DNA of 22,242 nt from a virus. Positions within the stretch are counted from its first letter, which is position 1; every line of letters begins with the position of its first letter. The stretch spans positions 1-22,242 of the IMG/VR virus record IMGVR_UViG_3300027749_000509; one strand, 5' to 3'. The notes under the pieces are model-generated. The model saw only the letters and a list, made by a program, of their open reading frames with translations. It ran no database searches and was not told where the DNA came from. Both the position numbers and the translations under genes were made by a program. Below are positions 654-20,626 of the stretch, one piece after another.

Positions 654-1396
654 GCAAGGCTCACATCTTCATTGCAACCCCTATGTATGGTGGCATGACC
701 ACTGGCTACTACTGTCAGTCACTGGTCAACACCACCGCTGTCATGCGAGCCAACGACATAGACATGTCCTTCTCTTGCATGTTTAACGAATCTCTCATCC
801 AACGTGGGCGCAACGCTCTTGCACATGGCTTTCTCAACAAGAAGGAAGCCACTCATTTAATGTTTATTGACGCAGACATCAGATGGAATCCAGCAGACAT
901 CATTCCCATGATTGAAGCAGACAAGGACATCATCTGCGGTATCTACCCCAAGAAAGAAATCAACTGGCATGAGGTAGAGAAGGCTGTCAAAGAGGGTGTG
1001 GAGGTTGACAAGCTGAAGACCCGTACAGGTAGCTTAGTGGTTAACCTTAAAGACTATCAAGGCACAGTCACAGTACCAGCGAATGAGCCTGTGGAAATAT
1101 TTAATGGCGGTACAGGGTTTATGCTTATCAAGCGTGAGTGCTTGGAAGACCTGTCAACCAAGATGGCAAGCTATATCAATGACGTTACCTTCCTGTCAGG
1201 CGAAATCAAGCAAGACAAGATTATTGAGTTTTTTGCCTGCGCTATTGAAGAAGGTGTAGGACGCTTGCTGTCTGAGGACTACTATTTCTGTCAGGAAGCC
1301 CGTAGGCATGGCTACAAGATTTACGCTGCTCCTTGGGTGGTTTTAGGGCATTTTGGAAGCTACCTGTTTGAAGGTGGCTTGATACCCGCTCCATGA
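650..1396 (+). CDS. GT-A fold glycosyltransferase (family 2-like)
   Basis: This is a 248-aa protein of usual size for phage single-domain GT-A transferases. The N-terminus (HIFIATPMYGG, residues 5-15) is the nucleotide-sugar binding strand and loop. FIDADI (73-78) carries the metal-binding D74-x-D76 signature. NGGTGFMLIKREC (152-164) is the acceptor-side strand typical of the fold, LSEDYYFC (207-214) supplies the conserved acidic ED pair, and H234 in VLGHFG could be the late metal ligand. Enzymes of this type move a sugar from a nucleotide-sugar donor. In phages the acceptors include modified DNA bases and host or virion glycans, and nothing here tells which. The gene overlaps both neighbours by ATGA, with AGAGGAG upstream at about 635-641. 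It is coupled to the PP-loop and methyltransferase genes. Confidence 0.85.
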   Translation: MSKAHIFIATPMYGGMTTGYYCQSLVNTTAVMRANDIDMSFSCMFNESLIQRGRNALAHGFLNKKEATHLMFIDADIRWNPADIIPMIEADKDIICGIYPKKEINWHEVEKAVKEGVEVDKLKTRTGSLVVNLKDYQGTVTVPANEPVEIFNGGTGFMLIKRECLEDLSTKMASYINDVTFLSGEIKQDKIIEFFACAIEEGVGRLLSEDYYFCQEARRHGYKIYAAPWVVLGHFGSYLFEGGLIPAP

Positions 1397-2244
1397 ACCC
1401 ATTCTTGATTAAAGAACCAACTTGTATCAGTTTCTCAGGTGGTAGGACTTCAGCATATATGCTTTACAAGGTGTTAGAGGCTCACCAGATGAGCTTGCCA
1501 AGTGAGGCTGTTGTCTGCTTTGCCAACACAGGCAAAGAAGAAGAAGCCACTTTAGAATTTGTCAATGAATGCTCTAAGCGTTGGAATGTTCCAATTTTTT
1601 GGCTGGAATATGTGGAGGTTGATGGTGAGCATTCTTTTAAGGTTGTTGATTATCAAACTGCTAGTAGAAATGGTGAGCCTTTTGAGGAAATTATTAAACA
1701 CTTTGACAATGCTTTACCAAATGGAAGGGCTAGGTATTGTTCAGCAAATTTAAAAACGAGAACTTTTTATAGATATTTAAGCTCTATTGGTTGGAAGGAA
1801 TGGGAATCTTTCCTTGGGATTCGTGCTGATGAGCCTAAACGAGTTGTCAAATTTAGGGCAAACCCAAACCCAGAAGGAAAACATGAGACTGTTTATTTGC
1901 CTTTGGCACAAGCCAATGTTTCGGCTAAGGATGTAAGTAATTTCTGGAAGCAGCAAGATTTTGACTTAGGCCTACCTAACATCAACGGCAAAACAATGCA
2001 CGGAAACTGTGATTTGTGTATGTTGAAGCCTAAAGCGCAGATTCTTAGCCTTATCCAAGAAAAGCCAGAGAGGGCTTTATGGTGGATTAAGCAAGAAGAA
2101 GAAGCCTCAAAAAGATGTGTAGGCGATGGAAAATTCTTTGCTATTGACAGGCCGAGTTATGCACAAATGTATAAATATGCTGCCGAGCAAACCGATATGT
2201 TTGACAAAAGTGAAGAAGCTATTTCTTGCTTCTGTGGGGATTAA
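1393..2244 (+). CDS. PAPS reductase-like PP-loop (adenine nucleotide alpha-hydrolase) protein
   Basis: This 283-aa protein opens with the PP-loop SFSGGRTSA (13-21), which binds and activates ATP or an adenylylated substrate, followed by VCFANTGKEEEATLEF, the typical second strand and helix of the PAPS reductase/DndC superfamily. Cysteines lie at C116 (RYCSAN), at C206-x2-C209 (CDLCMLKPKAQ) and at C279-x-C281 in the last residues (SCFCGD), a plausible set of Fe-S or zinc ligands. Members reduce PAPS or transfer sulfur; relatives act in DNA phosphorothioation, but no dnd partner genes are visible. The gene overlaps its upstream partner by ATGA and abuts the methyltransferase as TAAATG. It is visibly more AT-rich at about 1540-1960 than its neighbours, which hints at a separate origin. 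Family assignment is strong; substrate is unknown. Confidence 0.88.
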   Translation: MNPFLIKEPTCISFSGGRTSAYMLYKVLEAHQMSLPSEAVVCFANTGKEEEATLEFVNECSKRWNVPIFWLEYVEVDGEHSFKVVDYQTASRNGEPFEEIIKHFDNALPNGRARYCSANLKTRTFYRYLSSIGWKEWESFLGIRADEPKRVVKFRANPNPEGKHETVYLPLAQANVSAKDVSNFWKQQDFDLGLPNINGKTMHGNCDLCMLKPKAQILSLIQEKPERALWWIKQEEEASKRCVGDGKFFAIDRPSYAQMYKYAAEQTDMFDKSEEAISCFCGD

Positions 2245-2709
2245 ATGACCATCTCTCTTGACCTTGGGTGCGGTGAAACAATCCGCAACCCCTATCAAGC
2301 ATTGAAGGTGATAGGACTTGATATTCAGGACGCTGACCTGGCTATTGAGCCTATTCCTCATCCTGATGACCATTTTGACTTTGTAACTGCCTATGACTTT
2401 CTAGAGCACATCCCACGCCTCTTGTATGTCCCGCAACGCAGATACCCGTTTGTGGAACTGATGTCAGAGGTTTGGCGGGTGATGAAGGTGGGCGGCAAGT
2501 TCTTATCTTCTACACCAGCGTTTCCACATGCGCCAGCATTCCAAGACCCAACCCATGTGAACATCATCACGCCTCTAACATTTGCAGAGTATTTTGATGA
2601 CGAGAAGACTTGGGCAAAGATGTACGGGTTTAAGGGAAAGTTTCACATCAACAACATGCGCTACCACGGCCCTCACCTGATAGCTGAGTTAGAGAAGGTC
2701 AGCGTTTAG
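2245..2709 (+). CDS. Class I SAM-dependent methyltransferase
   Basis: This 154-aa compact Rossmann-fold methyltransferase has motif I LDLGCG (5-10) for SAM binding, GLDI (24-27) ending strand 2 with an acidic residue for the ribose, FDFVTAYDFLEHI (44-56) as motif IV and post-motif, and VWRVMKVGGKFL (76-87) as the L-PGG-type motif. It is shorter than most family members because it lacks an N-terminal lead-in and has only a brief C-terminal half. It starts directly after the PP-loop gene stop (TAAATG). No DNA methyltransferase target motif such as DPPY or NPPF is visible, so a small-molecule, sugar or protein substrate is as likely as DNA. Its 3' end overlaps the convergent minus-strand gene by 11 bp. 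Confidence 0.87.
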   Translation: MTISLDLGCGETIRNPYQALKVIGLDIQDADLAIEPIPHPDDHFDFVTAYDFLEHIPRLLYVPQRRYPFVELMSEVWRVMKVGGKFLSSTPAFPHAPAFQDPTHVNIITPLTFAEYFDDEKTWAKMYGFKGKFHINNMRYHGPHLIAELEKVSV

Positions 2710-2845
2710 CAGTCTGTGCAGAACGGCGAAAGGCTTCTTTTGTTGGATAACCTTTCTGTCCACGCTTCTTAGCAGGTAGTCCTGCTGCTCTGCGCTTGTT
2801 GATGTTGTAGTACAAGCCACGTTTTGCTTTAGGTGTGTATGCCAT
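2699..2845 (-). CDS. Small basic conserved phage protein (48 aa)
   Basis: The chosen start is the ATG at 2845, whose A is also the last base of the upstream TAA (TAATG), giving a 48-aa product beginning MAYTPKAKRGLYYNINKRR. A longer frame opens upstream to 2896, but it would run back through the neighbouring gene and the overlap argues for the shorter form. The protein is strongly basic and rich in Lys, Arg and Ala, with no membrane segment. I recall similar short MAYTPKAKRGLYYNIN-type proteins in aquatic phages, without known function. It is the last gene of the leftward transcription unit and its end overlaps the convergent methyltransferase gene by 11 bp. Confidence 0.65.
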   Translation of the reverse strand: MAYTPKAKRGLYYNINKRRAAGLPAKKRGQKGYPTKEAFRRSAQTAKR

Positions 2846-3072
2846 TATCTGCAACCCCATCTCTTTCTTGCTGCTTTTCCTCTTTCTCCCGTCCACGACT
2901 TACTGCGAGCGCAGAAAGACTTGTGACGAGGGCCTGATTTTGTAGGTGCTTTCAGGTTGCTACCTGTTGCCCTGTTTGTCTTTGCCCGACCTTTGGCAGT
3001 TAAGCCACCACCCTTTTTGACAGACAACTTCTCGCCTCTGCCGACAGATAAGTTAGGTGACTTCTTTCTCAT
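2845..3072 (-). CDS. Conserved phage protein with GRGEKLS/SFCAR motif (DUF6321-like)
   Basis: This 75-aa very basic protein has conserved blocks SPNLSVGRGEKLSVKKGGG, GLTAKGRAKTNRATGSNLKAP and HKSFCARSKSWTGERGKAARKRWGC. The order of blocks and the SFCAR motif match a widespread short phage protein family of unknown function that I remember as DUF6321; the two cysteines near the C-terminus (SFCAR and WGC) are retained. A basic, Cys-containing minimal protein could bind DNA or metal, but this is unproven. Its ATG overlaps the endolysin stop (ATGA) and its TAA overlaps the next start, so it is translated as part of the late lysis operon. Confidence 0.75.
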   Translation of the reverse strand: MRKKSPNLSVGRGEKLSVKKGGGLTAKGRAKTNRATGSNLKAPTKSGPRHKSFCARSKSWTGERGKAARKRWGCR

Positions 3073-4624: not shown

Positions 4625-4971
4625 GACATGCCCTCGCCAGGTGTCACATACACAATACCTGTGCCTGTGGCTACTATGGCAGAGACATAGAGAGAACTAG
4701 CAGCAGTATTTGCCGATTGTTTTGGTGCAGTAATAATGATTGTTTGATTGTTGTGCAGTATTGCTCCGTATGCAGGAGTACCCGCAACAGGAATTACAGC
4801 ATCATCTGTGCTTCCTGTACCTACACGGAAAAACACTTCTCCTGCTGTGCCGTTGTGTATTCTGAGTTGATTGCAGGGGCTGTCCGAAAGGATAGAGACC
4901 GTATTAGCCGTAGTTGTTACGTTAATACGGGTAGTCTTACCTTGAACCTGAAAAGCAATGTTATTAGCCAT
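4621..4971 (-). CDS. Small beta-rich virion-type protein, paralogue of the gene at 12325-12654
   Basis: This 116-aa protein is rich in Thr, Ala, Ile and Val, with alternating hydrophobic residues and no charged clusters, typical of beta-sandwich decoration or tail-accessory proteins. The stretch NQLRIHNGTAGEVFFRVG and the C-terminal GIVYVTPGEGM line up with NQYRIINSGSVTVFLGYG and AVYVTCGDGM in the 109-aa protein at 12325-12654, so the two are diverged copies. I recall related proteins in podovirus structural regions but no assigned function. Its ATG shares a base with the previous stop (TGATG). A single Cys (C33) is present. Confidence 0.7.
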   Translation of the reverse strand: MANNIAFQVQGKTTRINVTTTANTVSILSDSPCNQLRIHNGTAGEVFFRVGTGSTDDAVIPVAGTPAYGAILHNNQTIIITAPKQSANTAASSLYVSAIVATGTGIVYVTPGEGMS

Positions 4972-17945: not shown

Positions 17946-18947
17946 TTACAGTGAGAGGTAGTTGTAACCCGTCACCTTGGTCATTGACTTAGGCTTGACG
18001 TTCACCAATTCGGCAATCATCAAAACTGCGCCAACATAACCAATTTGCCAGTTAGGAAGTGTGGACTCAAAGCCTGTAAACACAAACGAACCTTGCTCAT
18101 GGATGTACAGAGACAAGTAGTTGGTGTTCAGGAAGTACACAGTACCTTCAGGACAGTAAGGGTCTGGATAGATAGGTACGCCAGCAACCATCAAAGCACG
18201 GAAAGCGGCTTGAGGGCCATTGTTGTCACCGTCAAAGCCTGAACCTGGGGTGATGACGTATTGCTCTTGACCGACAAAGTCTTGAGCCAACAGTGTCCAA
18301 GTACCAAAGCCGCAAACACCAAATGAAGGCATCTCAGCGCCAGCTTTCACTGTGCCAGAGATGTATTGCAGGATGTTTTGACGAGTGGGGTTAACTGAGC
18401 CAGCAGCATACTGAGTGGATTTCCACCATGTGTATGTAGTACGGTCAATGTTGCCGTATGTACCAGAGTTAGCAACAGCAGCAGGCAAGCCGATAAACTG
18501 TTGTGTATTCGTGGTGTTGTTGTACAGGGCTGTAGCCATTGCGTCCATCATCACGTTGGTAGCATCGTTCATACGTGCTTCAATCAACGGGATAATCGCT
18601 GCATCTTGCTGAACTGCGCCTTCCATACCGAGGAACGGCACGGGAGAAATCATCAGTTTCAGGTCAAATTCAGCGTTGTAAGCACCTTGTTGTACTGACG
18701 GTTGGGCAAAAGAGCCACTGTAGTCAGACCACTGAGCGTTTACGAACTGTGCACCTTGAACGGGTACGGTTACAGAAGACACACCACCAGAGGCTTGCTG
18801 ACTGTTGGCAATCAGTGCCGCCATCAATGGCGTGGAGTTGTACAGTTGTACAACGAGTTTGGGAATAAAGGCTCTACGAGTTACATAAGTCAGTTCATTG
18901 AACTGTGCTGACCCTGTAGCTGGTAGGATGCCGCCGCCAATAGCCAT
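17946..18947 (-). CDS. Major capsid protein (HK97-fold)
   Basis: This 333-aa protein has the features of an HK97-type capsid subunit without a delta domain: an N-terminal arm (LPATGSAQFNELTYVTRRAF), IPKLVVQLYNSTPLMAALIA, an E-loop-like beta region (VTVPVQGAQFVNAQWSDYSG), a spine helix (EARMNDATNVMMDAMATALY), and a long A-domain with GVCGFGTWTLLAQDFVGQ, FRALMVAGVPIYPDPYCPEG and TVYFLNTNYLSLYIHEQGSF. The MVAGVPIYPDPYCP and LNTNYL blocks are typical of A-domain strands. An 8-nt perfect anti-SD match, TAAGGAGG, lies 4 nt before the ATG, the strongest RBS in the window, as expected for the most abundant protein. The scaffold gene precedes it. HK97 fold is inferred from pattern and position. Confidence 0.85.
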   Translation of the reverse strand: MAIGGGILPATGSAQFNELTYVTRRAFIPKLVVQLYNSTPLMAALIANSQQASGGVSSVTVPVQGAQFVNAQWSDYSGSFAQPSVQQGAYNAEFDLKLMISPVPFLGMEGAVQQDAAIIPLIEARMNDATNVMMDAMATALYNNTTNTQQFIGLPAAVANSGTYGNIDRTTYTWWKSTQYAAGSVNPTRQNILQYISGTVKAGAEMPSFGVCGFGTWTLLAQDFVGQEQYVITPGSGFDGDNNGPQAAFRALMVAGVPIYPDPYCPEGTVYFLNTNYLSLYIHEQGSFVFTGFESTLPNWQIGYVGAVLMIAELVNVKPKSMTKVTGYNYLSL

Positions 18948-20187: not shown

Positions 20188-20204
20188 AATCACTCCTTGC
20201 CGTG

Positions 20205-20233
20205 TTTGTAACCACTTACTTACATCTTGTCAA
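20205..20233 (-). promoter_or_regulatory. Candidate sigma-70-type promoter
   Basis: Read leftward, TTGACA (20233-20228) is a perfect -35, then 17 nt, then TACAAA (20210-20205), a 4/6 match to the -10. It is followed by AAGGAG and the ATG at 20187, so transcripts would start with a leader of about 10 nt. It could drive the head and tail genes. Prediction only. Confidence 0.45.
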
Positions 20234-20238
20234 TAGGT

Positions 20239-20261
20239 GGGGGGATTTTATGTCGCCCCCC
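20239..20261. other. G6/C6 hairpin upstream of the candidate promoter
   Basis: Six G (20239-20244) can pair with six C (20256-20261) across an 11-nt loop. No T-run follows on the minus strand, so it is a weak terminator candidate; it lies between the minigenes and the promoter and could separate the portal unit from the head unit. Confidence 0.4.
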
Positions 20262-20280
20262 AAGACAAATCCGTTAAGGA

Positions 20281-20319
20281 TTACTTGCGGCTTTTACGGC
20301 CTTTACGAGCTTTACGCAT
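20281..20319 (-). CDS. Tiny basic minigene (12 aa, MRKARKGRKSRK)
   Basis: A 13-codon frame from ATG at 20319 to TAA has TTGGAGAAG 3-8 nt upstream as an RBS. The product is almost wholly Lys/Arg (MRKARKGRKSRK). It resembles the 13-aa product at 20400-20441 (shared core KAxxGRKS), suggesting duplication or common function such as DNA or RNA contact. It may be chance, since frames this short are common, but two similar ones with RBSs in otherwise non-coding DNA are unexpected. Confidence 0.35.
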   Translation of the reverse strand: MRKARKGRKSRK

Positions 20320-20399
20320 GGTCTTCTCCAAGGTTAGAGGCGGCGAACTATTTGTGAAGGGAAGTAAGCCACACCCTTTTTCCCTTGCGGGGAAACTGA

Positions 20400-20441
20400 T
20401 TAGCGGCAGCTTTTGCGTCCGCGTTTAGCTTTTTTGTACAT
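20400..20441 (-). CDS. Tiny basic minigene (13 aa, MYKKAKRGRKSCR)
   Basis: A 14-codon frame from ATG at 20441 to TAA follows AGGAG with a 6-nt gap (TGAACC), 15 nt after the stop of the 56-aa gene, as a normal operon spacing would be. The product MYKKAKRGRKSCR is a Lys/Arg-rich peptide with a single Cys. The core KAKRGRKS matches KARKGRKS in the neighbouring minigene. I recall similarly short basic peptides near portal genes in other phages, but no function is established. Confidence 0.4.
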   Translation of the reverse strand: MYKKAKRGRKSCR

Positions 20442-20455
20442 GGTTCACTCCTGAA

Positions 20456-20626
20456 TTATTGTCTGGCGTAATCACGCTGACTACGCCCAGTCATGGTTTT
20501 AATCCCTGTTTGACGCATTGTCAAGTTAGGACTTGCTTCGCCTTTTTTCAGCGATTCTGTTGTTTTCCTTGGCTGGTCAGCCTTGGGTTGGGTCATGCTT
20601 CTAGTGCCTGGTGCTGTTGCCATCAT
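20456..20626 (-). CDS. Small basic protein downstream of the portal (56 aa)
   Basis: The frame runs from an ATG at 20626 (or the adjacent ATG at 20623) to TAA at 20456; the first ATG overlaps the portal stop as ATGA. The product (MMATAPGTRSMTQPKADQPR...) is polar and basic with conserved-looking LTMRQTGIKTMTGRSQRDYA near the end, no membrane segment. GGTGGG lies just upstream. Position and coupling after the portal argue for a small portal- or head-associated protein; function unknown. An antisense frame over the same DNA is discarded because it would run against both neighbours. Confidence 0.62.
   Translation of the reverse strand: MMATAPGTRSMTQPKADQPRKTTESLKKGEASPNLTMRQTGIKTMTGRSQRDYARQ

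Follow-up and report, generated by a model that had tools for sequence, protein, structure and literature searches.

A stretch of 22,242 bases of viral DNA (the window, IMG/VR record IMGVR_UViG_3300027749_000509) carries two reading frames of 12 to 13 codons, here called minigene 1 and minigene 2, between its portal and head genes. Their Lys- and Arg-rich products raise the question of whether frames of this size are genes at all and, if so, whether their function lies in the peptide, in the act of translation or in the surrounding RNA. Both frames were found exactly as the original prediction had described them, with the same positions and TAA stops, each after a Shine-Dalgarno (SD) sequence (CAGGAG before minigene 1 and TTGGAG before minigene 2; Table 1). 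Judged by comparison with relatives, they are genuine, ultra-short genes whose peptides are under selection, since the SD is conserved, Arg codons are optimal, acidic residues are absent and changes are mostly synonymous.

Relatives were selected by a portal protein search alone (80 IMG/VR relatives, 81–97% identity), and 66 complete intervals, two of them from GenBank genomes, were compared. Both minigenes were present in 64 of the 66, the other two (L067 and L077) being without minigene 2. The frames were thus conserved together with their SDs and position; lack of such conservation in relatives had been named at the outset as what would refute the prediction. Minigene DNA patterns were also scanned over 2.9 million viral contigs, which yielded at least 194 new loci; all 194, among the matches listed, bear genes of this phage group. 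Loci overlap between the searches, and the samples are not independent. The copy number was found to be 1, 2 or 3 per phage, with three copies in L249, L207, L258, L269, L166 and L301, and Lys plus Arg account for more than half of the residues in these genes of 10–15 amino acids (aa). Single short frames that are rich in Lys and Arg and preceded by an SD are not unusual, with about 0–3 per 14.6-kb strand in control phages; chance origin of the pair is ruled out by its presence in 64 of 66 intervals and its persistence in deep relatives. Joining of the two frames by bypassing or frameshifting, in the style of T4 gene 60, was also rejected, each frame having its own SD and either being lost alone in some loci. 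The two minigenes are plausibly paralogous, 12 residues being too short to establish paralogy.

Near-identical pairs in the portal-selected set showed 25 synonymous and 9 nonsynonymous codon changes in minigene 1, and 30 and 8 in minigene 2, where a ratio of about 1:3 is expected. The resulting ratio of nonsynonymous to synonymous rates (dN/dS) of ~0.1 is rough, the pairs compared not being independent. About 60% of the differences were at third codon positions, and length changes came as whole codons. No Asp or Glu occurred in 128 copies counted without an acidic filter. Over all loci, from which acidic residues had been filtered out beforehand, the net charge stayed near +7 to +10 throughout, and minigene 2 ranged from 10 to 24 residues. 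In addition, 90% of the Arg codons of the minigenes are CGT or CGC, compared with 57% for ten of the window's structural genes. These features fit abundant, free basic peptides.

The minigenes persist far beyond the portal-selected set. At about 50% portal identity (L281, L283 and L300, from a search started from a distant portal), minigene 2 reads MARKARKGRKARK. At about 40% portal identity (L305–L307; 55% identity of the major capsid protein, MCP, where covered), two 11-aa genes are found at the same site: L305 and L307 have MARKHKRAKRK and MARHMRRSRRK, and L306 has MARKSRRHKRK and MARRMRRHKRK. In L280 there is a basic frame of greater length, MYGKMPKPMKKPPMRDGKRS. One locus, L291, has from about position 4722 a single 15-aa frame, MYKSMMRMKGRKARR, which resembles an in-frame deletion fusion of both minigenes of its sister L302.

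Side-by-side reading of the intervals first brought to light the interleaved helix pairs of two pseudoknots, PK1 and PK2. PK1 lies between the minigenes, its 3' end about 10 nucleotides (nt) upstream of the minigene 2 SD. Across a set of 47 diverse sequences, pairing was seen in 89.4% of the PK1 cells (best slid control, 67%), with 49 two-sided changes, and 0 of 500 shuffles matched any measure. Two wobble pairs are the commonest state of stem 2, and because such conserved G-U pairs work only on the minigene strand, PK1 is RNA of that strand. A DNA cruciform was rejected, since the interleaved arms and the conserved G-U pairs speak for RNA. In the clades having PK1, a covariance model of this pseudoknot matched just ahead of minigene 2; the model gave no match in L067, L077, L110, L280, L282, the L299/L301/L302/L305 clades or seven control phages. 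When intervals were sorted by a rough core pattern, 246 had minigene 2 with PK1, 10 minigene 2 only, 6 neither, and 0 PK1 alone. PK1 was gone together with minigene 2 (L067, L077 and L110) and was retained without minigene 1 (L260, L257 and L225). Because PK1 was found only with minigene 2 in this sample, it is best interpreted as the minigene 2 leader.

Table 1. Features of the minigene interval in the window, all on the minus strand
Feature	Position	Strand	Sequence	Remarks
56-aa frame	20456..20626	-	MMATAPGTRSMTQPKADQPRKTTES...	upstream neighbour of minigene 1; alignable in relatives
SD region of minigene 1	20442..20453	-	CAGGAGTGAACC	GGAG-type SD in nearly all relatives
Minigene 1	20400..20441	-	MYKKAKRGRKSCR	stop TAA
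HP1 hairpin	20379..20395	-	TTTCCC CGCAA GGGAAA	4 nt past the minigene 1 stop; weaker support than the pseudoknots
PK1	20342..20377	-	S1 AGGG/CCCT; S2 GGC-UU-ACU/AGU-UC-GCC	H-type; covariation and covariance model
SD region of minigene 2	20320..20333	-	CCTTGGAGAAGACC	
Minigene 2	20281..20319	-	MRKARKGRKSRK	stop TAA
HP2 hairpin	20268..20282	-	AATCC TTAAC GGATT	starts within the minigene 2 stop codon; weaker support than the pseudoknots
PK2	20238..20267	-	S1 TGTC/GACA; S2 TGGGGGG/CCCCCCA; A-rich loop TAAAAT	covariation and alignment-free test
Promoter-like element	20204..20233	-	TTGACA-N17-TACAAA	with palindrome; upstream of orf155

PK2 sits between minigene 2 and TTGACA, ahead of the head operon. 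It was 90.6% paired (best slid control, 52%), with 54 two-sided changes and 0 of 500 shuffles. An alignment-free H-type finder, at a score of at least 28, detected it in 88.5% of 157 representatives and in 2.5% of dinucleotide shuffles; the long-loop PK2 clade (A3), left uncounted for covariation because its MAFFT alignment was too poor, is included in this test. A plain terminator was rejected for PK2, a U-tract lacking in most copies though present in L101, L214, L227 and L263. Ordinary intrinsic terminators were observed past the minigene in L280 (about 3700) and L281 (about 2560–2760), at the place of PK2 in nearer relatives. An Rfam search of the window up to E 5 gave nothing relevant to either pseudoknot, its three sub-threshold matches being unrelated. 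The two pseudoknots look like control added in one clade, or lost in others.

TTGACA is nearly invariant straight after PK2, with TACAAA at 17 nt in near relatives, and the palindrome GTTTGTAA-N4-TTACAAAC is perfect in near relatives and imperfect in the window. The element appears promoter-like and operator-like. A simple σ70 scan of the window did not list it, because its second hexamer is without T at position 6. Other clades have different sequences, apparently with different palindromes, at the TTGACA site, as expected of a co-evolving operator. The description of the minigenes as lying in DNA without other genes needs qualification, since a 56-aa frame precedes minigene 1 and the interval holds two hairpins, the two covarying pseudoknots and the TTGACA/palindrome element. 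The start of the 56-aa frame overlaps the portal stop, its end falls just before the SD of minigene 1, and its stretch PKADQPR is conserved among relatives. The portal gene lies upstream, the major head protein is encoded at 18947–17946, and homologues of portal, MCP and head-closure proteins of tailed phages are present in the window.

We propose that both frames are translated ultra-short late genes, each yielding a free, strongly basic peptide of 12–13 residues that would bind electrostatically to nucleic acid. Most likely, these peptides would serve to neutralise charge and condense the phage genome during head assembly, in the manner of the microvirus J protein, because the genes sit between those for the portal and for head assembly and seem to be strongly expressed. 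Binding to DNA or RNA in the capsid, as suggested in the original prediction, is plausible from these features. PK1 would control initiation at minigene 2, most likely by autogenous repression in which the free peptide binds the pseudoknot, as in T4 gp32, and PK2 would form the 3' boundary of the portal/minigene transcript, just ahead of the TTGACA element of the head operon. To this reading as a whole, namely nucleic-acid-binding head peptides made in bulk, with minigene 2 perhaps autogenously controlled via PK1, we assign a probability of about 50%. Three related loci with minigene 2 only (L288–L290) contain a histone-like 28-aa Lys/Ala-rich frame, MATKHAKVAAKKAAMKKAVKKTLKPKVR (L288 5615; L289 6080), between orf60 and scaffold homologues; such an extra basic frame is as expected if basic charge matters, and is suggestive only.

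Several points weigh against this proposal. A role in the virion is suggested by position, charge and codon bias only. Minigene 1 is missing in about 20 loci that have minigene 2 alone, minigene 2 is missing in L067, L077 and L110, and both are missing in L282; neither minigene is therefore essential everywhere. No such genes were found in cultured phages whose MCP is distantly similar (Mx8, Mx9, BUCT555 and others), so that DNA condensation is not generally needed by heads of this type; a general trait of the capsid type was rejected, the genes not having been found in Mx8, Mx9, BUCT555, Bradyrhizobium, Microcystis and two Manatee Spring phages. Minigene 2 also occurs without PK1 in L299, L301, L302 and L306, and autoregulation via PK1 thus cannot be universal.

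The best placed of the alternatives, though an unlikely one, is that the peptides are arginine-rich-motif regulators which mainly bind PK1 and PK2 in late mRNA and switch the head genes without entering the virion. BIV Tat and lambda N are RNA-binding peptides with arginine-rich motifs, and the minigene products resemble such short binders in length and composition. Covarying pseudoknots stand on both sides of minigene 2, and PK1 was found only with it. However, L305–L307 have both minigenes and no recognisable pseudoknot, orf155 beginning there soon past the minigene 2 stop, and L299, L301 and L302 have minigenes without PK1. Moreover, drift from MRKARKGRKSRK to MARHMRRSRRK, in which mainly charge is kept, is not expected of a sequence-specific RNA binder.

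It is improbable that the minigenes are leader peptides whose translation, through passage or stalling of the ribosome, governs the hairpins and pseudoknots and hence downstream expression, the free peptide being functionless. Polybasic nascent chains do slow ribosomes, and a ribosome terminating on either minigene would melt the hairpin 4 nt past the stop of minigene 1 (HP1) or that within the stop of minigene 2 (HP2). However, the amino acids are kept while synonymous codons vary freely, the Arg codons are optimal, HP1 is retained in loci that lost minigene 1 (e.g. L260 and L257), and in the deepest relatives the minigenes outlast the flanking RNA structures. Action through translation itself, which the original prediction had also allowed, is disfavoured on the first and last of these grounds. 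Since the minigenes of the deepest relatives stand without the pseudoknots and synonymous codons drift, the peptide appears to be what is conserved, and the core function looks like the basic peptide rather than the act of translation.

Slightly more improbable still are host-directed effectors, small cationic peptides that would inhibit the ribosome, RNA polymerase or nucleoid, or aid lysis. Host machinery can be a target of small basic phage proteins, and the codon bias suggests high expression. The site, however, is the head-assembly module and not among early or lysis genes, and the tandem layout beside the portal is conserved over deep divergence. That the interval acts as structured RNA only, with the frames as by-products or chance, is strongly disfavoured: positions 20456–20204 are densely structured throughout, but the third-position excess, the in-frame length changes, the conserved SD-ATG-stop arrangement and the deep persistence without RNA structures all speak for genes.

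As had been anticipated, standard annotation misses the minigenes, because they are too short for gene callers. In the GenBank relatives MW202825 (L082 6713-6973) and MW202753 (L083 4740-5038) they are unannotated, and antisense hypothetical coding sequences, likely spurious gene calls, cover them on the opposite strand. The peptides would be equally invisible to trypsin proteomics because they would be cut to a few residues. Spurious antisense annotation together with this loss means that such peptides may be common yet unseen. The minigenes rank with the shortest genes in which peptide selection can be demonstrated by comparison, here over hundreds of phages. That they represent a new class of phage genes, with tandem protamine-like peptides of 10–15 codons and one gene behind an autoregulatory pseudoknot leader, is a tentative proposition, and prior listing in small-gene surveys is possible. 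If it is true, genome condensation in tailed phages would be partly genetically encoded and self-limited. The two new covarying pseudoknots offer a model of regulation that could be put to the test at once, and the peptides lend themselves to direct synthesis for use in binding assays.

Two relatives were binned in beta-proteobacterial metagenome-assembled genomes and others in Balneolaceae, Saccharibacteria and Alphaproteobacteria, binning of phage contigs being unreliable. The records suggest a large, freshwater phage group, the freshwater label coming from the origin of a few named records. Elsewhere in the window, two overlapping Lys/Arg-rich frames lie at 2699–3072 (minus strand), the second matching DUF6321 (PF19846), and a PAPS-reductase-domain gene followed by a methyltransferase-domain gene lies at 1393–2709 (plus strand), opposite to the head genes.

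Among known systems, the bar minigenes of lambda are likewise very short phage frames bearing that name. They act through translation and peptidyl-tRNA drop-off, whereas in the present minigenes purifying selection acts on the peptide. The GMSC catalogue of small open reading frames (ORFs), which predicts ORFs from 30 nt and whose taxonomy excludes phages, similarly collects conserved tiny genes missed by standard callers. Microvirus J proteins of about 25–40 aa are encoded by a single gene in single-stranded-DNA phages with T=1 capsids. Like J, the minigene peptides are very small and strongly basic, without Asp or Glu, and their genes lie among those for the capsid, between portal and head genes. 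The Microviridae J homologue (VP8) is located in the capsid interior (PMC11945456). The present phages are instead tailed double-stranded-DNA phages with one to three tandem genes for 10–15 aa and a pseudoknot upstream of one; the minigene peptides could be an analogue of J at most, not a member. The Downstream-peptide motif (RF01704) is a structured 5' leader of frames of 17–100 aa, and STAXI (RF01728) consists of tandem pseudoknots near genes for DNA-binding proteins (PMC2864571). These motifs are from other hosts, the minigene peptides being shorter and basic, and neither model gave an Rfam match in the window up to E 5. The product of T4 gene 32, a large cooperative single-stranded-DNA-binding protein with an SSB fold, differs from a 12-residue peptide, and its operator has UUAAA repeats that are not found at PK1. 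That operator is a pseudoknot of ~28 nt that lies 5' of the SD in a phage gene whose product binds nucleic acid, and its sequence diverges between phages (PMC535899); PK1 is likewise an H-type pseudoknot located 5' of the SD of minigene 2.
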